Virus record (IMG/VR): IMGVR_UViG_3300049491_001078
Coordinates: 1-51,118 of that record
Direction: 5' to 3' (one strand)
Source of the DNA: a virus
Length of the DNA stretch: 51,118 bases
Positions within the stretch are counted from its first letter, which is position 1; each line of letters opens with the position of its first letter. The notes under the pieces are model-generated. The model ran no database searches and had not been told where the DNA came from. It saw nothing but the letters and a program-made list of their open reading frames with translations. Of this stretch, positions 24,554-51,118 are shown piece after piece. Position numbers and translations under genes: made by a program.

Positions 24554-26557
24554 ATGAAAATTCAACTTGAATCAATCAAGCTAACCAACTTCAAAAAGAT
24601 CAGATCTTTTTCAATTAATTTCCACTCACACATTACCAACATCTACGGAAAAAATGAGGATGGAAAAACATCGTTAATGGATGCTTTTTTATGGGTACTG
24701 TTCGATAAAGACAGTACTGATCGCAAAGATTTCTCCATTAAAACACTGGATGAAAACAATGTAGCATATCCCAGGCTGGATCATGAAGTAGAGGTTGTTC
24801 TCAATGTAGATGGCAATACCATCACATTGAGGAAATGTCTGAATGAAAAATGGGTAAAGAGAAAAGGATCCACGGAAACTGAGTTCACCGGTCATGAAAC
24901 TTCTTATTTCTGGAATGATGTGCCAATGAAGAAAGAAGTTTACCAGGCTAAAATTAGTGAGCTGTTAAACGAACAGGTGTTCAAGCTTATCACCAACACA
25001 ACTTACTTTAATGCCCTCAAATGGGAAGACCGCAGGGCCACCTTAATATCCATCGCTGGTAAAATTAATGATGCTGATATCGCTGCTGGTAATCCTGCAT
25101 TCGAAGCATTGATTAAACATATTGCTGGTAAAAAATCTATTAAAGAATACAAAAGCGAAATAGCAGCCAGCAAGAAAAAAATAAAAGATCAGTTAGATCT
25201 TCTTCCTTCCAGGATATCAGAAGCAAAATTGGCTTTACCCGAAGAAAAAGATTATACACTACTGGCCGAGCAGGCAGCAGGTGTACAGGTGGATATAGAT
25301 GGCATTGACGGATTGCTTTCTAACAAGAGCCTGGCTTACCAGGATCACCAGAATAATTTAAATACACTTATTACAAAGAGGCAGGGACTTCGCCAGTTGA
25401 TGAATGACATTGAATTCACAGCTAAAAACAAAGTGCAGCAAAACAAGCAGGCACGGCAGGGAAAGATCAATGAAGAAAAGAATGCACTGTCTGCAAAGAA
25501 TAATGAACGGACTACTTTCCTCGGTAGTTATAATTCTTCTATTGATAGAAAAACTGCATTGGTAAAAGAGCAGGGTGAGTTACGCATTAAATGGGGAAAT
25601 ATCAATGATGAAAAACTGGAGTTTAAAGAAGGTGAGTTTTGCTGCCCTGCATGCAAAAGAGAATTTGAAGCTGCTGATGTAGATGCAAAGAAAACTGAGC
25701 TGACCAATAATTTCAATAACGATAAAAGCACCAGGCTTATGGCTATCACCAACCGTGGAGCTGCCATCACAAAAGAACTTGAAGACCTTGAAATTAAAAT
25801 ATCCAATATCACTGCAGACGGAATCAAATTAAAATCTGAAATCGAAGTGATCGATGCCAGGATCATTGAATTGCAAAAGGAACACGACAGGCTTTCTGCT
25901 GATGAAATTGGCGAACAGGAAAAAGAAATTGCCGGCAGTGAAACTTATCAGAAGTGCCGCAGAGATATTGTTGAATTAGAAGAACAGATCAACACACCAT
26001 TCCAGGCAGAAGATAACAGCGCCCTTGTTCAACGCAAAAAGGATTTGATCATTCAACTGAATCAGTTGCAAAATCAAATGGCATCTAAGGGCCAGCGTGA
26101 GCAACAGCTAAAACGTGTGCAGGAACTGGAAGACCAGGAAGGAACCATGGCACAGCAGCTTGCTACGCTGGAAGGAACAGAATACACCATTCTGCAATTT
26201 GAAAAAGCACAAATGGATGAACTGGAAAACCGCATCAATGACCGGTTTAAGATCGTCAAGTTCAAAATGTTCAAACAAAATATCAATGGCGGTGAAGAGC
26301 CTTGTTGTATCACACTGGTGAATGGTGTTCCTTATCCCGATGTAAACACTGCCGGTAAAATTCAGGCTGGCTTAGATATCATCAATACACTTTCCAGTCA
26401 CTATGGTGTGCAGGCTCCGGTGTGGGTTGATAACAGGGAGTCTGTTACCAATCTTCCGGAGACAGAGTGCCAGTTGATCAACCTCATTGTAAATGAGCAT
26501 GCTCCTAAACTTACGCTGGTGAAACCGGTGCCAACATTGGAGATGGAACCTGCATAA
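24554..26557 (+). CDS. SMC/SbcC-like ATPase
   Basis: This 667-residue protein has an N-terminal P-loop (G-K-N-E-D-G-K-T-S, residues 32-40), then a long charged coiled coil (about 190-350 and 375-560) interrupted by a zinc-hook motif (CCPAC near residues 362-366). The C-terminal ATPase half has a Walker B-like strand (APVWVDNRES). This is the Rad50/SbcC/gp46 layout, in which the ATPase handles DNA ends with a nuclease. It opens an operon with RecT and a metallo-nuclease, so end resection for recombination is the likely role. Confidence 0.85.
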   Translation: MKIQLESIKLTNFKKIRSFSINFHSHITNIYGKNEDGKTSLMDAFLWVLFDKDSTDRKDFSIKTLDENNVAYPRLDHEVEVVLNVDGNTITLRKCLNEKWVKRKGSTETEFTGHETSYFWNDVPMKKEVYQAKISELLNEQVFKLITNTTYFNALKWEDRRATLISIAGKINDADIAAGNPAFEALIKHIAGKKSIKEYKSEIAASKKKIKDQLDLLPSRISEAKLALPEEKDYTLLAEQAAGVQVDIDGIDGLLSNKSLAYQDHQNNLNTLITKRQGLRQLMNDIEFTAKNKVQQNKQARQGKINEEKNALSAKNNERTTFLGSYNSSIDRKTALVKEQGELRIKWGNINDEKLEFKEGEFCCPACKREFEAADVDAKKTELTNNFNNDKSTRLMAITNRGAAITKELEDLEIKISNITADGIKLKSEIEVIDARIIELQKEHDRLSADEIGEQEKEIAGSETYQKCRRDIVELEEQINTPFQAEDNSALVQRKKDLIIQLNQLQNQMASKGQREQQLKRVQELEDQEGTMAQQLATLEGTEYTILQFEKAQMDELENRINDRFKIVKFKMFKQNINGGEEPCCITLVNGVPYPDVNTAGKIQAGLDIINTLSSHYGVQAPVWVDNRESVTNLPETECQLINLIVNEHAPKLTLVKPVPTLEMEPA

Positions 26558-26592
26558 TTCAAATCATTACTTAAAATTCAAACAGAATAATC

Positions 26593-27399
26593 ATGGGAAA
26601 CGAAACAGCGTTAGCAAAAATTAACACCCTTCAATCTGCAATGAACGAAGACTATGTGCAGAACCAATTGAAGGCAGCACTGGGGGATAATTCTTCGGCA
26701 TTTGCTGCATCACTGATCGATCTTTTTACAGGCGATAATAACCTGCAGGAATGCAATCCAAAGCTGGTGATCATGCAGGCGATGAAAGCTGCCATCTTAA
26801 AACTTCCGATCAATAAAAACCTGGGCTTTGCTTACCTGATAGCATACAAGGGAAAGGTGGAAATGCAGTTAGGATATAAAGGCATTTACCAACTGGCATT
26901 GAGAACTGCACAGTATCGGGTGATCAACGTGGATGTGATCTATGAAGGAGAATTAAAAACCGTGAATAAATTGACCGGTGAATGTGATCTCACTGGCATG
27001 GCAATCTCTGCAAATGTGGTTGGCTACTTCGCCCACTTTGAATTGCTGAACGGGTTTGCTAAAACCCTGTTTATGACCAAGGATAAAGTAACTGCACATG
27101 CAAAGAAGTTCAGTAAAACTTTTGGCAACGGTCCATGGCAAACTGATTTTGATGCGATGGCTAAAAAGACAGTGTTGAAATATTTGCTGTCTCACTTTGG
27201 CCAGCTGTCTGTTGAGATGGCAAATATCCTGGACAAAGAAGATGAAGCAGATAAACTCCAGACTGAGATTGGAGAAAATGCCAATAAGAAAAACATGAAT
27301 TTTTCTAACGTGGAGGATGCAGAATTAGAAACCTCTCATAACGGAAGTCAGCAACAGAATAATCAACAATCAGGAGAGCAGCTTAAAGCACCATTTTAA
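26593..27399 (+). CDS. recT: RecT-family single-strand annealing protein
   Basis: The 268-residue product matches RecT proteins in length and in landmarks: a helical N-terminus (DYVQNQLKAALGDN), the segment LPINKNLGFAYLIAYKGK, then VEMQLGYKGIYQLALRT and a central AMAKKTVLKYLLS near residue 196-208. RecT binds single strands and anneals complementary DNA. Its stop is adjacent to the metallo-beta-lactamase-fold gene, which probably supplies the partner exonuclease. The C-terminal 40 residues are polar and Q/N-rich. Confidence 0.9.
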   Translation: MGNETALAKINTLQSAMNEDYVQNQLKAALGDNSSAFAASLIDLFTGDNNLQECNPKLVIMQAMKAAILKLPINKNLGFAYLIAYKGKVEMQLGYKGIYQLALRTAQYRVINVDVIYEGELKTVNKLTGECDLTGMAISANVVGYFAHFELLNGFAKTLFMTKDKVTAHAKKFSKTFGNGPWQTDFDAMAKKTVLKYLLSHFGQLSVEMANILDKEDEADKLQTEIGENANKKNMNFSNVEDAELETSHNGSQQQNNQQSGEQLKAPF

Positions 27400-28148
27400 T
27401 GAGACTACAGGTAATCAACAGCAACTCAGCCGGCAACGCTTACATCCTTGAATCATCTACCGGTGAAGCGTTGCTGATTGAGTGCGGTGTAAGGTTTGAC
27501 AGCATCAAAAAAGCACTTGGTTTTATTCTTAGTAAAGTGTCTGGTTGCATATTAACTCATGAGCATGGGGACCATGCTAAGAGTATCACTGATGTAATGA
27601 AGGCTGGTATTAAAGTATATGCTTCAAAAGGAACACACGAAGCCTGCAACACTACTTATCATCATCGTGCTGGCATCCTTGCGTCAGGAAAAGAACAGCG
27701 GATCGGCAATTTTACAGTAATGCCTTTTGATGTATTACATGATGTAAAAGAGCCTCTTGGGTTTCTTATTTATCACCTGGAGTGTGGCACTGTTCTTTTC
27801 ATGACTGATACAAAGTACTGTGAGTATAATTTTAGCGATATCCGGCTTAACAATATCATCATTGAAGCAAATTATTGCCAGACTATTATCGACAGGCGTG
27901 TTGCAGAAGGAGTCAATCCGAAGTTCTTACGGGATCGTGTATTGCAAAGTCACATGAGCCTGGCCACCTGCAAACAAACGCTGGCTACTTATGATCTCAG
28001 TGCTGTTAACAACATTGTATTGATTCACCTGAGTGATGGCAACAGTCACGAAGCCAGGTTTAAAAAAGAAGTGCAGGAGCAGACTGGAAAAGTCGTTCAC
28101 GTTGCTACTCCAGGTTTAAATATTCAATTCAACAGAATACCATTTTAA
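27399..28148 (+). CDS. Metallo-beta-lactamase-fold nuclease
   Basis: The 249-residue protein contains the metal-binding H-x-H-x-D-H motif as T-H-E-H-G-D-H (residues 53-59), a second histidine region (FDVLHDVKEP) and FMTDTKYC, with a C-terminal IHLSDGN. These are features of MBL-fold exonucleases/phosphodiesterases. It immediately follows recT (TAATG overlap), so it probably takes the place of the lambda-Exo-type partner that makes single-stranded ends for RecT. Confidence 0.8.
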   Translation: MRLQVINSNSAGNAYILESSTGEALLIECGVRFDSIKKALGFILSKVSGCILTHEHGDHAKSITDVMKAGIKVYASKGTHEACNTTYHHRAGILASGKEQRIGNFTVMPFDVLHDVKEPLGFLIYHLECGTVLFMTDTKYCEYNFSDIRLNNIIIEANYCQTIIDRRVAEGVNPKFLRDRVLQSHMSLATCKQTLATYDLSAVNNIVLIHLSDGNSHEARFKKEVQEQTGKVVHVATPGLNIQFNRIPF

Positions 28149-29033: not shown

Positions 29034-29522
29034 ATGATAAAATTAGCGACCGACAAAAAGACCATTACTGATCAGTATAAAAAAGCAGATCCATCAGGCA
29101 AAAAATTGCTGAACCAAATATTTGGCGACAAATTCTTTCTCTCCATTCCTGAAAGGATAAAGACCTGGGAAGATGCTGCTAAAGAATATGGTGTAGATCC
29201 TGTTGAATCATTGCCCTATCCAAAACCAACTAACAACAGGCAGGAAGCTCTCAATGCATTCTATATGCTCGATATCATTTCAGAAATTCTTTGCGAAGGA
29301 GTAGTGTTGGATTGGGAGGATAGTGATCAAAAAAAGTGGTATCCGTACTTCAACGATTATACACCGGGTTCGGGCTCTCGGTTCATCGGTACGGATTACG
29401 ACTGGGCGAATGCGAATGCGGCTGGCGGCGCTCGGCTTTGCGTTCCAACCAGTGAGTTAGCTGGGTATTTCGGGGAACAATTTTTATCAATCTGGAAGCA
29501 ATTTTTAAACCCAATAAAATAA
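29034..29522 (+). CDS. DGR target protein 1 (variable protein)
   Basis: This 162-residue protein has a helical N-terminal region (KTWEDAAKEYGVDPVESLP) and a C-terminal region holding variable repeat 1 at residues 112-136 (GSGSRFIGTDYDWANANAAG), followed by ARLCVPTSELAGYFGEQF. The family resembles small proteins I recall from Bacteroidota genomes and phages, with a conserved F-x-F...W...G-x-R-L pattern and hypervariable residues between. The variable codons are those with A in positions 1-2 of the template, so the diversified positions are probably ligand contacts on a C-type-lectin-like or similar scaffold; the fold is inferred. Confidence 0.8.
   Translation: MIKLATDKKTITDQYKKADPSGKKLLNQIFGDKFFLSIPERIKTWEDAAKEYGVDPVESLPYPKPTNNRQEALNAFYMLDIISEILCEGVVLDWEDSDQKKWYPYFNDYTPGSGSRFIGTDYDWANANAAGGARLCVPTSELAGYFGEQFLSIWKQFLNPIK
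29367..29441 (+). repeat. DGR variable repeat VR1
   Basis: This 75-bp segment aligns without gaps to the template at 29970-30044. There are 14 differences; 13 are at template adenines (A to G, T or C) and one is T to C at repeat position 11. It is in frame with the target gene and lies near its 3' end. Confidence 0.9.
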
Positions 29523-29527
29523 TAAAA

Positions 29528-29935
29528 ATGTACAAAGAAATTACAACAGTTGAAGAAGCAATGAAAAGGTATAAGGAGCCTTTTGATCTTGAAAAAATGA
29601 AAGAGGCTGTGTCTGTATTGCCGCCATCCATTAGCCGGGGAATGCTTGCGCTGGCAGTTTTGCAAGTGGTTACCTGGAGTGTGAATAATGATGATCCTAA
29701 AGAACCAGAATTCAAACCAGACTATAACAATTCAGATCAGTACAAATGGTCTAACTGGTTCCGTGGAGGTGATGAAACGGGTTCGGGCTTTCGGTTCTTC
29801 GATGCGTTTTGCGACTGGGCGAATGCGGATACGCGTGGCGGCGCTCGGCTTGCTTGCAAGGACGAAGAACGGGCCCTTCATGTGAAACAATATTTTGAAG
29901 AGCAGTACAAAGAGCTGTTCCTGATTTTGAAATAA
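29528..29935 (+). CDS. DGR target protein 2 (variable protein)
   Basis: A 135-residue paralogue of the preceding protein, starting 5 bases after its stop. The N-terminal half is charged and helical. Residues 85-109 are variable repeat 2 (GSGFRFFDAFCDWANADTRG), followed by ARLACKDEERALHVKQYF. The invariant positions (G-S-G, F, D-W-A-N, G-G-A-R-L) are shared with target 1, whereas residues between differ. The two N-termini share little sequence, so the genes are not a recent simple duplication. Confidence 0.8.
   Translation: MYKEITTVEEAMKRYKEPFDLEKMKEAVSVLPPSISRGMLALAVLQVVTWSVNNDDPKEPEFKPDYNNSDQYKWSNWFRGGDETGSGFRFFDAFCDWANADTRGGARLACKDEERALHVKQYFEEQYKELFLILK
29780..29851 (+). repeat. DGR variable repeat VR2
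   Basis: 72 bp aligned without gaps to the template (29970-30041). All 16 differences fall on template adenines; none is at G, C or T. Homology stops right after this segment. Confidence 0.92.
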
Positions 29936-29969
29936 AATAGTAAGGTGGTGTGCTGCAGTAGCCAGGCCA

Positions 29970-30044
29970 GGTTCAGGCTTTCAGTTCAACGATACGAATT
30001 ACGACTGGACGAATACGAATACGAATGGCAGCGCTCAGCTATGC
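29970..30044 (+). repeat. DGR template repeat (TR)
   Basis: A non-coding, adenine-rich copy of the variable repeats, located between the second target gene and the reverse-transcriptase remnant. In the target register it reads G S G F Q F N D T N Y D W T N T N T N G, i.e. AAC, AAT and ACG codons at the sites that vary. This codon bias is typical of DGR templates because adenine mutagenesis of AAY codons reaches many amino acids. Confidence 0.92.
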
Positions 30045-30162
30045 AGGAGAATTTTTAAAGCAGCACAGACCCTGGCTCTTGCCAAAAAACGACATACAAA
30101 AATAAAGGGCTTTAGTAGCGGTGAATCTGCAAGCAAGACCTTTTGCCCAAGCAAAGAAAATA

Positions 30163-30312
30163 ATGAAAAGAATCAATAACCTTTATAGTAAGATCATTAG
30201 CATGGAGAACCTTGCTGAGGCTGAACAAAAAGCCCGGAGAGGAAAATCCCATCAATACGGAGTGCAGGCATTTGGCAAGGCTCCTGAAAAGAATTTAGCG
30301 GAGTTCCAGTAG
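30163..30312 (+). pseudogene. Truncated DGR reverse transcriptase (N-terminus only)
   Basis: The 49-codon frame begins MKRINNLYSKIISMENL and continues with QKARRGKSHQYGVQAF, the typical opening of DGR reverse transcriptases (M-K-R-x-x-N-L-Y...ENL...A...KAR-x-GK). It ends at TAG after NLAEFQ, about where the first conserved RT block should begin. No downstream frame continues it, and no YxDD-type RT exists elsewhere in the window. An in-frame GTG at 30121 could extend it upstream but adds no homology. A full-length enzyme would be roughly 300-400 residues. Confidence 0.8.
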
Positions 30313-30428
30313 CACAAAATTTAGAAGCTGCACCTGATACGGCAGTACAACATAAAACAATTATTCACCGGGCACCTGTATCAAAGAAAAAAGTGGAGGT
30401 GCCCATCAATCAAACACAACTGTTTTAA
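30288..30428 (+). other. Orphan 3' gene fragment ending in a clamp-like QTQLF
   Basis: Overlapping the end of the reverse-transcriptase remnant in another frame is a 46-codon open stretch without a start codon. It ends KKKVEVPINQTQLF and a stop. The terminal Q-T-Q-L-F resembles sliding-clamp-binding peptides (QxxLF). It looks like the tail of a deleted gene fused to the broken RT; translation is doubtful. Confidence 0.4.
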
Positions 30429-30429
30429 C

Positions 30430-31113
30430 ATGGCAAAAGTAAAAGTTTTAGGAAACACGATCTCAGGTACTGCAGAGGACATTGCAAAAGTATTTGACAA
30501 AGCAGCAAAGCGCCTGGCCGGAGATAACTCCGATGAAAAGCTGTATATCATCACAAAGGCTGCATTCAAAGGCCTGTTCTGTAACTACTCTTATGAATTT
30601 GCCACCGGCGATACAAAGGGTGATGAATGTGACAGGAAGGGATCATTGATTGTGCATGATGATATGAAGAACGCATTTAAAAAATTGCATGCACACCTGG
30701 CGGTGATCTGCGAAGAAGTAGATGGTTCCAAGATCAGGGATATTGAAACCATCGAAGAATATGATGAAGATGAGCACAAGGAAAATGGGATAGAATTTAA
30801 AATATCCAAATTCTATGTTGACTCATTCACCATTAAAGGAACCGGTGAAAACCTGAGTGTTATTTTATCGGGCAGCAAGATGCTTTCAACAGGAGATTAC
30901 GTTGCATTGACCACACCAAAAAGAGAACTGGAAGGTGAGTACAAATTTGCCAATGAGCTTCGGGTTGCTATTGATGATTGTGTATTTGAGGTAGAAGAAT
31001 ATATGAAGGGAAAATCAAAACCCAAAATGATCCAGCCTGAATTGCCGGGACTTGATGGAAGTACAGAAGGTGAAGGAAAAAATGAAAGTTTTGATCAAAC
31101 TACAATGGACTAA
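30430..31113 (+). CDS. Hypothetical protein, single-strand-binding-like candidate
   Basis: A 227-residue acidic protein (MAKVKVLGNTISGTAEDIAKVF...). It has mixed alpha/beta composition and a polar, acidic C-terminal tail (DGSTEGEGKNESFDQTTMD), a feature of single-strand-binding proteins, but no OB-fold signature is evident by eye. It is directly followed by the SNF2-type helicase gene. Replication/recombination accessory function is inferred from context. Confidence 0.5.
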   Translation: MAKVKVLGNTISGTAEDIAKVFDKAAKRLAGDNSDEKLYIITKAAFKGLFCNYSYEFATGDTKGDECDRKGSLIVHDDMKNAFKKLHAHLAVICEEVDGSKIRDIETIEEYDEDEHKENGIEFKISKFYVDSFTIKGTGENLSVILSGSKMLSTGDYVALTTPKRELEGEYKFANELRVAIDDCVFEVEEYMKGKSKPKMIQPELPGLDGSTEGEGKNESFDQTTMD

Positions 31114-32837: not shown

Positions 32838-33169
32838 AAGGCTCTTCCATCATATTAGCGCTGCATCATTTGAAAATGTCAAAAGACTTTTTCCAGGATT
32901 GCATCCGCCAGCACCCGGGAACAAAAGGCGCAAACCTGTTTAGTGTTTATACCAACAGGATAGAATGGATTTATCGGGACATTATCACCACTCCTGCGCT
33001 GCCTGCTGTAGTGGTAGCAGGAATAAAAAAGGAATGGACCAGCGATGCCTTTACCGTTCCTGCACTGAACGAAAAGATAGCTGTACTAAACCCGGAGCAA
33101 CGGGAAGCGATTGAAAACATTATTGATAAAGTATTAGCAGGAGAAGTATTAACAGTTGAAAAAATATAA
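32834..33169 (+). CDS. Hypothetical protein downstream of the helicase
   Basis: The 111-residue product starts in the ATGA overlap with the helicase stop. Mostly helical with a basic middle. No family recognised. It could be a helicase partner by co-translation; this is inference only. Confidence 0.5.
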   Translation: MKGSSIILALHHLKMSKDFFQDCIRQHPGTKGANLFSVYTNRIEWIYRDIITTPALPAVVVAGIKKEWTSDAFTVPALNEKIAVLNPEQREAIENIIDKVLAGEVLTVEKI

Positions 33170-33170
33170 G

Positions 33171-33461
33171 ATGACAAACGAACCAATATTTTTAATAGTT
33201 GACCTGTTTTGCGGATTTGGTGGAACCACCACTGGTTTTACAGAAGCACACTTTGCCACTTTTCCGGAAGATTTAATAGTCGATTGTGTCAAAGCAGGAT
33301 GTCCATTGGGAGGGGTAGTTCTTGATCCTTTTATGGGTGCAGGCACTACGGCATTGGTAGCAAGAAAGCTGAACCGGAAGTTTATTGGTTTTGAGTTAAA
33401 TGCGGAATATATAGCCATTGCAGAAAAAAGATTACGTAACGAATTAGGAATGTTTTTATGA
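33171..33461 (+). pseudogene. Chimeric DNA methyltransferase remnant
   Basis: A 96-residue frame joins two unrelated enzymes. Residues about 1-23 are the opening of a C5-cytosine methyltransferase, with motif I D-L-F-C-G-F-G-G-T-T-T-G-F. Residues about 26-96 are the C-terminal end of a beta-class N4/N6 methyltransferase (HFATFPEDLIVDCVKAG, then LDPFMGAGTTALVA and FIGFELNAEYIAIAEKRL). The cytosine catalytic loop (PCQ), the DPPY motif and the target-recognition domains are absent. An internal deletion between two neighbouring genes is the simplest explanation; enzyme activity is unlikely. Confidence 0.8.
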
Positions 33462-35859: not shown

Positions 35860-36213
35860 ATGAATTACTGTCATCCATGCATCTGCTCACTGGAGGTGAA
35901 GCGGCTGAGAAAATTAACGATGGGAGATGTGGTTGAATATGCAGCTGATTTTTACGGCATGTCAGTAACCAGGCTTATTAAGAAGGAAAGGACAAAGGAA
36001 TTGGTGTATAGCAGGTTTGTTACCATTGATTACCTGGTGAAGCTTCAGACATATAGCCTGGTAACCATTGGAAAGTATTTTAAACGGAACCATGCTACCA
36101 TCATTCATGCCCGGGACAGAATACAGGAGTTAAAAGATTTGTACCCGGAGATTGTAAATGAGATGAAAGATTTTAAGGAGTACATGGACTCAAAGGTTTT
36201 TGAAGCAGCGTAA
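35860..36213 (+). CDS. Free-standing DnaA domain IV-like protein
   Basis: A 117-residue protein whose C-terminal 80 residues match DnaA domain IV: helix (VVEYAADFYGMSVTRL), basic helix, then the signature IGKYFKRNHATIIHARD at about 67-83, the helix-turn-helix that reads DnaA boxes. AAA+ domain III is missing, so it can bind DNA but not hydrolyse ATP. It may mark the phage origin or compete with host DnaA. It is followed by a DUF4373 initiator-like gene. Confidence 0.85.
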   Translation: MNYCHPCICSLEVKRLRKLTMGDVVEYAADFYGMSVTRLIKKERTKELVYSRFVTIDYLVKLQTYSLVTIGKYFKRNHATIIHARDRIQELKDLYPEIVNEMKDFKEYMDSKVFEAA

Positions 36214-41160: not shown

Positions 41161-42684
41161 ATTACAGCAGCAATTGAATCAAGGATTATAAAGACCCAAA
41201 ATATTGAGTGGAAAAACCTGCTGTTTATACAGGAGGAGAATTTTAAGGAATGGATAAATAACGGCGATGAAAAGCTTCAGCAATCTTTATTGAAGTACCA
41301 GTTTGTAGACCCTTTCAAAGTGTGGGAGCATGATGGTAAAATTTATTGTCTGGATGGGAAGCATAGATTTTTAGACCTGGTTCAGATACAAAAAAATGGT
41401 ATGCAGGTACCAGAATTATTACCAGCAACATTTATTAACTGCACCGACATTAAAGAGGCAGCCGAGTTAGTACTCGTATTTTCTTCCGCTTATGCTGCAA
41501 TAACAAAGGATGGTCTATCACTATTTATAAAAAAGTTTGAACTGGATTTTCCACAACTGCAGGAACTACTCTCTATCCCTAATTTAGATATCACAGGATT
41601 TAATACAAATGAACCCCACGGATTAAAAGATACTGATTTCATTATCAAAAATCTCCAGCAACGATTTATTATTCCGCCGTTTTCTATTTTCGATTCAAGG
41701 CAGGGATATTGGCAGGATAGAAAAAAGCAGTGGCATAGCCTGGGTTTTAACAGCCAGGAAACCCGGGAAGATATTGAACTGGTGGCGAAGAGCGGACAGG
41801 CTCCGGCAATTTATGAACTTCGAAATAAAATGAGGGAGCGGCTTGGAAGAGAACCATTATGGGATGAAATAATAGCTGAAGCCAAGAACAAAGGCATGCA
41901 TATTTATGAAGGTGCCAGCGTATTTGATCCAGTGCTGGCAGAGATTTGTTATAAGTGGTTTTGTCCTGAAGGAGGTATGATATTGGACCCGTTTGCGGGA
42001 GGAAGTGTTCGGGGTATTGTTGCAGGCATACTTGGTTTCGATTATTTGGGTATTGATTTGAGACCGGAGCAGGTAAGGGCAAATATTGACCAATGGGAAA
42101 ATTTAAGAAATCCGGACAGTGATATTGATATTAACTGGATTGCTGGGGATAGTAATGAAATGCTCGAGAATTTTCCTGCAGGTGAAAATGTGATTGATTT
42201 TATTTTTTCCTGCCCTCCATACTTTGACCTTGAGCAATACAGTGAAGATCCTGCCGACCTCAGTAACATGACTTATGAAAAGTTTCTCGATGTCTACCGG
42301 AGTATCATATTTAAATCACTCACTAAACTAAAAACAAATCGGTTTGCTTGTTTCGTAGTAGGAGACATTAGGGATGAAAAAGGGTTTTACCGGGATTTTG
42401 TAAGTGAGACAATAGATGCGTTTACACATCAGAGTTTATGTGATGGCAATCCAATACGTTTATACAACGAAATAATTTTGATAAATGTGGCAGGATCATT
42501 ACCAGTAAGAGTAGGCCGTCAATTTGAAACAGGAAGAAAAGTAGGTAAGATGCACCAGAATGTATTGGTGTTTTACAAAGGTGATCCTAAAAAGATTAAA
42601 GAAAATTTTCCAGAAATAAAGGTGGTGGAATACTTGCAGGAGTTGAATTATCAACCCAATATTGCCTTGTCAGTGATTGATTAG
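41161..42684 (+). CDS. ParB-like/DNA methyltransferase fusion
   Basis: N-terminal ParB/Srx-like domain (DPFKVWEHDGKIYCLDGKHRF) and C-terminal amino-methyltransferase: motif I LDPFAGGSVRGIVA, FDYLGIDLRPEQ and motif IV SCPPYFDLEQ. It probably methylates adenine or N4-cytosine in phage DNA. No ATG, GTG or TTG exists where homology begins: a TTG at 41290 would give 464 residues but cut off the first strand of the ParB-like domain (RIIKTQNIEWKNLL). An ATT at 41161 is in frame and would give about 507 residues; the given start is tentative. Stop codons lie in frame near 41127. Confidence 0.75.
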   Translation: MTAAIESRIIKTQNIEWKNLLFIQEENFKEWINNGDEKLQQSLLKYQFVDPFKVWEHDGKIYCLDGKHRFLDLVQIQKNGMQVPELLPATFINCTDIKEAAELVLVFSSAYAAITKDGLSLFIKKFELDFPQLQELLSIPNLDITGFNTNEPHGLKDTDFIIKNLQQRFIIPPFSIFDSRQGYWQDRKKQWHSLGFNSQETREDIELVAKSGQAPAIYELRNKMRERLGREPLWDEIIAEAKNKGMHIYEGASVFDPVLAEICYKWFCPEGGMILDPFAGGSVRGIVAGILGFDYLGIDLRPEQVRANIDQWENLRNPDSDIDINWIAGDSNEMLENFPAGENVIDFIFSCPPYFDLEQYSEDPADLSNMTYEKFLDVYRSIIFKSLTKLKTNRFACFVVGDIRDEKGFYRDFVSETIDAFTHQSLCDGNPIRLYNEIILINVAGSLPVRVGRQFETGRKVGKMHQNVLVFYKGDPKKIKENFPEIKVVEYLQELNYQPNIALSVID

Positions 42685-42774
42685 CTGGCGAGGCTTTAGG
42701 CTGTATTTTCTGCCAATACAATGGCTCTTTTGAGATCGGTTTTGGCCTTGATTAAAACCACTGAAAAGATTTAC

Positions 42775-42800
42775 ACGGTGCAATTTAACGATTGCACCGT
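42775..42800. promoter_or_regulatory. Perfect 10-bp inverted repeat before packaging genes
   Basis: ACGGTGCAAT (42775-42784) and ATTGCACCGT (42791-42800) form a perfect 10-bp stem with a 6-base loop in the gap between the methyltransferase gene and the packaging genes. It lacks a T-tract. It may be an operator, or part of a packaging (pac/cos) region, as such sites lie near the small terminase gene. Confidence 0.6.
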
Positions 42801-42848
42801 ACCGGTTCATCGCTGGTTTCATAAATTAGATGTCTAAAAGCCCTTTTT

Positions 42849-43106
42849 ATGACATCGTCCAGCAAACTAAAAGACATTGAAAAGCTATTGATTATGAAGC
42901 AAACAGTAAAACCTATTATCGATTTGATTGAGCAACGATTAAAGACCCGTCGCACAATGCTTGATACTTTAGTGATACAGCCAGTGGATAATGTACCGGA
43001 ATCCATCAAGAAAATGCGGGAGGAGGAGTCCAGCAAAATAAGAGCAGTGATCCAGGAGCAGGAGGATCTGCTGGCCACCATAAAAGTTTTATACCCCAAT
43101 GGATAA
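42849..43106 (+). CDS. Hypothetical coiled-coil protein before small terminase
   Basis: An 85-residue helical, charged protein (MTSSSKLKDIEKLL...), overlapping the small-terminase gene by 8 bases. It may be a packaging accessory; no family recognised. Confidence 0.5.
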   Translation: MTSSSKLKDIEKLLIMKQTVKPIIDLIEQRLKTRRTMLDTLVIQPVDNVPESIKKMREEESSKIRAVIQEQEDLLATIKVLYPNG

Positions 43107-50595: not shown

Positions 50596-51118
50596 ATGTC
50601 ACTCAATTCAGCATGCATTGCAGCCGGTTACAATGGAGGTACTATACCATGTGCCCCAACACCCGGCGTATTAAAATATCTTGCAAAATGGGAAGGTAAG
50701 CTAACGCTTGAAGAACTTCTTTTGGGAGATTTAAACTGTGAAGTCATTTTAGCCGGCCACAGTAAAAAAAGTAAATCAGATGGCAGTAAACTGGTATTGT
50801 TTCCGTTGGTTCATGAACCAACCAATAAGAAGGAAGCCAATACTGTAGTAACGCTGGCTGATGGTTTTACAGAAACCACCAGGGAAGGGTTACCGTCCTA
50901 TGATCTCAAGATCATCACTGACCTTTACCAGGTAACACAATTGCGTAAAGGAAACAACAGGCGTACCCGTTATGCATTCATCGATGATAAGCTGCAGTTT
51001 CTTGCAACTTTTAACAGCGATGGAGAAGTAGTAGGAAGGTCCGGTAAATTCTTTACTGATGGTATCGATGCCAAAGGCTATGATAAAGCAACCGGCGAAA
51101 CAATGATCGCCATACAGG
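50596..51118 (+). CDS. Probable major tail (tube) protein, N-terminal part
   Basis: Starts MSLNSACIAAGYNGG and runs off the window end after 174 codons. The reading frame joins the left-end frame at base 2 through the terminal repeat, giving the full tube gene. The first 67 codons (up to base 50796 in the right copy) are unique to this end. Confidence 0.7.
   Translation, partial: MSLNSACIAAGYNGGTIPCAPTPGVLKYLAKWEGKLTLEELLLGDLNCEVILAGHSKKSKSDGSKLVLFPLVHEPTNKKEANTVVTLADGFTETTREGLPSYDLKIITDLYQVTQLRKGNNRRTRYAFIDDKLQFLATFNSDGEVVGRSGKFFTDGIDAKGYDKATGETMIAIQ
50796..51118. repeat. Terminal direct repeat, right copy
   Basis: Matches bases 1-323 with four third-position transitions. The overlap shows that the sequence wraps around, giving a unit genome of about 50,795 bp. 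Confidence 0.95.

Follow-up and report, generated by a model that had tools for sequence, protein, structure and literature searches.

In Bordetella phage BPP-1, whose diversity-generating retroelement (DGR) comprises mtd, avd, a template repeat (TR) and the reverse transcriptase (RT) gene brt, trans-complementation works for phage lacking avd, TR and brt (PMC3240598). Surveys of DGRs start from the RT (e.g., PMC8144416), and cassettes that have no RT are therefore invisible to them. A 2025 survey noted second variable repeats (VRs) near counter-defence genes (PMC12629997). Here, we analyzed the complete IMG/VR record IMGVR_UViG_3300049491_001078 (G000; 51,118 bases), referred to below as the window or the phage record. 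The results lead us to conclude that this record very probably carries a member of a DGR cassette family in which the RT is truncated to 47 codons and the accessory gene is lost, and which is now non-autonomous.

Template, variable repeats and target proteins

Sequence comparison places an adenine-rich TR at 29970..30044 (+ strand) and two VRs upstream of it, VR1 (29367..29441, +) in frame near the 3′ end of the gene T1 and VR2 (29780..29851, +) in frame near the 3′ end of T2. The coordinates of all three repeats, as well as the position of the VRs within genes of 162 and 135 codons, agree with the initial annotation. The repeats were compared over a 74-bp register starting at 29968 in TR, which holds 23 template adenines and 51 non-A positions, and p values are hypergeometric. 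VR1 differs from TR at 15 positions, of which 14 are TR adenines, the other being a T to C change (p 2.3e-8), while VR2 differs at 17, all of them TR adenines (17/17, p 4.4e-12). When the two VRs are compared directly, 10 of their 11 differences lie at TR adenines (p 1.4e-5). The non-A positions of TR are matched at 51/51 in VR2 and 50/51 in VR1, and we conclude that the whole record holds no third VR because the next best place matches only 27/51 of them.

Six differences are common to VR1 and VR2, with A in TR and G (or T) in the VRs (29969, 29975, 29983, 30030, 30037 and 30041). These fixed differences, present on both flanks, have equivalents in the relatives inspected and are therefore marks of the TR/VR boundary rather than independent mutation events. 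The restriction of changes to adenines, claimed earlier, thus stands in the counts, with the reservation that six of the counted sites in each VR are fixed across the family. Three of the fixed sites, A-to-G or A-to-T at the 3′ end of TR (30030, 30037 and 30041, again with equivalents in relatives), resemble IMH/IMH*, and by this likeness the fixed flank differences may function as TR/VR boundaries of that type. Between the fixed flank sites, every change in the core falls on an adenine (VR1, 8/8, p 1e-4; VR2, 11/11, p 1e-6). Decay of TR by G-to-A mutation was ruled out, the TR-A/VR-G sites being likewise fixed in intact relatives. A search of IMG/VR and GTDB contigs with an adenine-masked TR pattern gave no match. 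That TR, VR1 and VR2 arose without a retroelement, by simple duplication and divergence or by gene conversion, would fit the paralogy of T1 and T2, but the adenine-restricted changes, the RT remnant and the covarying RNA tail of TR described below all argue against it, as does the same adenine pattern in about 30 relatives that have an RT; we consider this explanation extremely improbable.

T1 (29034..29522, +) encodes a 162-aa protein of the phrog_11581 family (PHROG E 1e-22), and T2 (29528..29935, +) a 135-aa paralogue of T1, as seen by alignment and by a match to phrog_11581 (E 9e-6). Both combine the N-terminal homology of the phrog_11581 early targets with a C-terminal VR. In an AlphaFold model of T1 (pLDDT 84), the N-terminal part is helical and the VR poorly ordered; on the question of a C-type-lectin fold, the VR is modelled at a low confidence of pLDDT 56-58. 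A fold search with this model returned no relative in the PDB, significant scores being obtained only to uncharacterised viral proteins; neither T1 nor T2 could be assigned a function from PADLOC, Pfam or NCBIfam. The analysis confirms that these two small variable proteins belong to an early recombination/replication region and are not tail fibres, a location that the relatives share. It is plausible that the putative ligand of T1 and T2 is not an adsorption receptor. The proteins may instead bind a variable intracellular partner, such as a host defence factor, and a role against intracellular host factors would agree with the published second VRs near counter-defence genes (PMC12629997).

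The truncated reverse transcriptase and the RNA downstream of the template

The DGR RT is represented by a remnant at 30163..30312 (+), consisting of codons 1-47 followed by an in-frame TAG (hmmsearch 55 bits, E 6e-16). The remnant ORF has 49 codons, the match spanning 30163-30303 and model positions 1-47 only, with the stop at 30312. The profile, built from eight DGR RTs of relatives, was run in six frames at maximum sensitivity, and it found the catalytic part with the YxDD box nowhere in the record; Pfam RVT_1 had no match anywhere in the record either, and an RT alignment search of the record recovered the remnant alone. A candidate degenerate RT tail past codon 47 scored 63.5 bits, compared with a mean of 56.8 and a maximum of 62.1 for 60 shuffled tails. 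The accessory gene phrog_19665 was not found in any of the six frames of the record. No source was found for the post-break sequence (30313..30429, no strand assigned), nor a close relative with an intact RT that would fix the breakpoint. In the capsid relatives (L079 onward), most of whose records are fragments, neither T proteins nor an RT was found. The complete DGR implied by the initial annotation is thus not borne out, the RT being a 49-codon remnant and the RT-linked accessory gene being gone.

The ends of the record overlap by 323 bp (1-323 and 50796-51118, 319/323 identical, 98.8%), so the record is near the whole genome and little is missing. The contig self-closes, yet with 4/323 mismatches in the terminal overlap it joins two population variants. 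The deletion is known from one metagenomic contig, and it is possible that assembly made the deletion of the RT. A complete, autonomous and active DGR would then exist, the deletion being an assembly artefact or one variant of the population. The diversified core of both VRs, which is free of non-A changes, is compatible with this explanation, as are the 4/323 differences in the overlap, by which the population is mixed. However, the genes downstream stand in their natural order, and two other loci have no RT yet keep a TR, and we regard a complete element as quite unlikely.

Between TR and the RT start lies a structured RNA (30044..30162, +), identified by covariance model, with a hairpin TGGC-TCT-TGCCA at about 30070-30083 and a second helix. 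A model made from 30 loci that have an RT, with the phage record excluded, recovers the full-length element in the phage record (54.1 bits) and in two RT-less loci, L041 (61.3 bits) and L044 (45.5 bits), such that the element is intact in 3/3 RT-less loci. The structure from TR to the RT start is common to 33 loci, where 10 of 12 pairs show two-sided changes and 93.8% of cells are paired, vs about 38-54% with the partners slid. Rfam RT-17 matches the phage record at 30068-30158 with 24.2 bits, below the gathering score of 40.4.

A cassette family and its loci without a reverse transcriptase

About 30 relatives display the fixed order T-T-(T)-TR-RT-accessory, which defines a DGR cassette family in Bacteroidota phages and prophages. 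Homologues of T1 are found in the Bacteroides phages LoVEphage, BI-TP1, PV4-TP1 and Versailles, in 14 IMG/VR and 8 GTDB contigs, in 22/401 genomes sampled from the order of the Mucilaginibacter MAG G018 and in 7/36 from that of G016. When IMG/VR was scanned with T1, T2 or the phrog_9513 protein singly, no confirmed relatives emerged. In the loci that have an RT, 486/512 TR/VR mismatches are at A. The T genes are preceded by an early module (24554..28148, +, by Pfam) encoding an SbcC-like AAA ATPase, RecT and a metallo-beta-lactamase-fold protein (MBL), in the phage record as well as in L002, L038-L040, L045 and L048. The cassette is followed by a gene for a phrog_9513 protein (30430..31113, +), which also occupies this place in L031 and L044. 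Elsewhere, in Mu-like and exonuclease-bearing prophages, the cassette is near MuB-like genes (L213, which also has a Sak4-like annealing match, and L224) or near a phage exonuclease (L221); together with the SbcC-RecT-MBL contexts, these loci show that early/recombination modules of unrelated phage types carry the cassette. With this family, several unrelated phage types carry hypermutable proteins that belong to the early, intracellular stage of infection, and targets of the kind noted near counter-defence genes (PMC12629997) acquire a shared protein family and gene arrangement.

Nearly every intact locus has, after the RT and usually overlapping its end, the gene phrog_19665 (e.g., L034 11604-11903, L042 12410-12712, L027 9067-9381), which encodes about 100 aa; the last RT frame of LoVEphage runs on into a similar sequence. 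The phrog_19665 product is a candidate DGR accessory protein, and its structural model is beta-rich, with weak, non-significant PDB matches. T-family genes also occur at L220, L223, L227 and L229, where there is no local TR or RT and where the genomes have no match to the family RT; these are possible orphan targets. Further along the phage record, just upstream of a replication initiation protein, an ORF at 35860-36213 encodes a protein of 117 aa, in essence the DNA-binding C-terminal domain of DnaA (PF08299, E 1e-12), and a short ORF at 33156-33461 reads as the C-terminal fragment of a DNA methylase (N6_N4_Mtase, profile 160-221), perhaps a remnant.

L041 and L044 also keep TR, the RNA element and the VRs without an RT. 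In L041, the RNA element is directly followed by other ORFs, which replace the RT and the accessory gene. In L044, the accessory gene is kept and the RT that would separate it from the RNA hairpin is missing. L044 is the closest syntenic relative of the phage record, with which it shares the order SbcC, MBL, T genes, TR, phrog_9513, SNF2 helicase and replication protein. Across the three RT-less loci, 54/60 TR/VR mismatches are at A. In intact relatives, RNA transcribed from TR and carrying the structured element as its 3′ tail would be the template for the RT, which would miscopy adenines, and the cDNA thus made would supplant the VRs located at the 3′ ends of the two small early proteins. 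The VRs of the phage record would have been written by this RT mechanism before the RT was lost, and the cassette would now be either frozen or supplied in trans with an RT. Since its RT is reduced to a stump, the cassette would be either freshly dead or borrowing the enzyme of another element in the cell. Given the loss of the RT, a frozen cassette after recent loss has in our judgment slightly better than an even chance, and an RT in trans slightly less than one; the two states predict the same single sequence. The second of them, a sub-case of our preferred explanation, holds that the non-autonomous cassette is kept because an RT of the host, of a prophage or of a co-infecting phage acts on its TR RNA. 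The preservation of TR, RNA element and VR pattern in 3/3 RT-less loci points to it, and so do the RNA element common across the family and the trans-complementation achieved in BPP-1 (PMC3240598). Against it, the MAGs hosting the L041 and L044 loci (G015 and G018), which are possibly incomplete, show no match to the family RT, and recent loss accounts for the same facts; overall, we hold an RT in trans to be possible but short of probable. The broader proposition, that non-autonomous phage DGR cassettes owe their diversification to RTs encoded by other elements of the cell, with the hypermutation machinery shared between genomes, is tentative and in our view rather doubtful. The three RT-less cassettes, with their template, RNA element and VRs, make the question of diversification in trans directly testable.

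Comparison with known systems

Like the BPP-1 DGR, the family shows adenine-specific TR/VR changes, a VR at the 3′ end of the target, a structured RNA between TR and RT, and an RT downstream of TR. Unlike in BPP-1, the targets of the phage record and its family are small early proteins rather than a tail fibre, the partner gene of the family is phrog_19665, placed after the RT, and the phage record is without a functional RT. Among known RNAs, the element can be compared with the RT-17 RNA of Rfam (RF03020): the elements of L029 and L030, between TR and RT, score above threshold (57.7 bits), whereas that of the phage record is below it. The RT-17 RNA coincides with the structured tail of the DGR template RNA in these two loci (L029 1619-1710 and L030 1693-1784).

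The double-VR DGRs of LoVEphage type (OY725593 and MW660583; PMC12629997) have an early target that is a homologue of T1. This early target is hypervariable, records about 99% identical nearby differing mainly at TR-A positions. In these phages, however, the RT and TR are at the tail module beside a tail VR, and the early VR is remote, whereas in the phage record TR adjoins two early targets and there is no tail VR. In six phage records (L012 1150-2702, which is OY725593 at about 41477-43020; L064), the DGR RT of the LoVEphage group lies in three overlapping frames separated by two +1 shifts. A homologue only 74% identical in DNA keeps the split and has no insertions or deletions at the shift sites; these sites seem unusually conserved, despite clear diversification of the VRs. 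This pattern suggests that the RT may use programmed frameshifting.

Bacteroides phage Versailles (ON453897) resembles the phage record in having a T1 homologue downstream of SbcC-RecT-MBL, whose match to a distant TR is 61/70, with 9/9 differences at A, and differs from it in that its RT is intact and close to the tail genes. For both LoVEphage and Versailles, the T1 family represents a remote VR of the tail-side DGR. The Mucilaginibacter MAG prophage locus L044 has the early gene order, several T genes, the TR and the RNA element of the phage record and, as described above, no RT; there the RT is wholly removed and the accessory gene kept, whereas the phage record retains a remnant of the RT and has lost the accessory gene.
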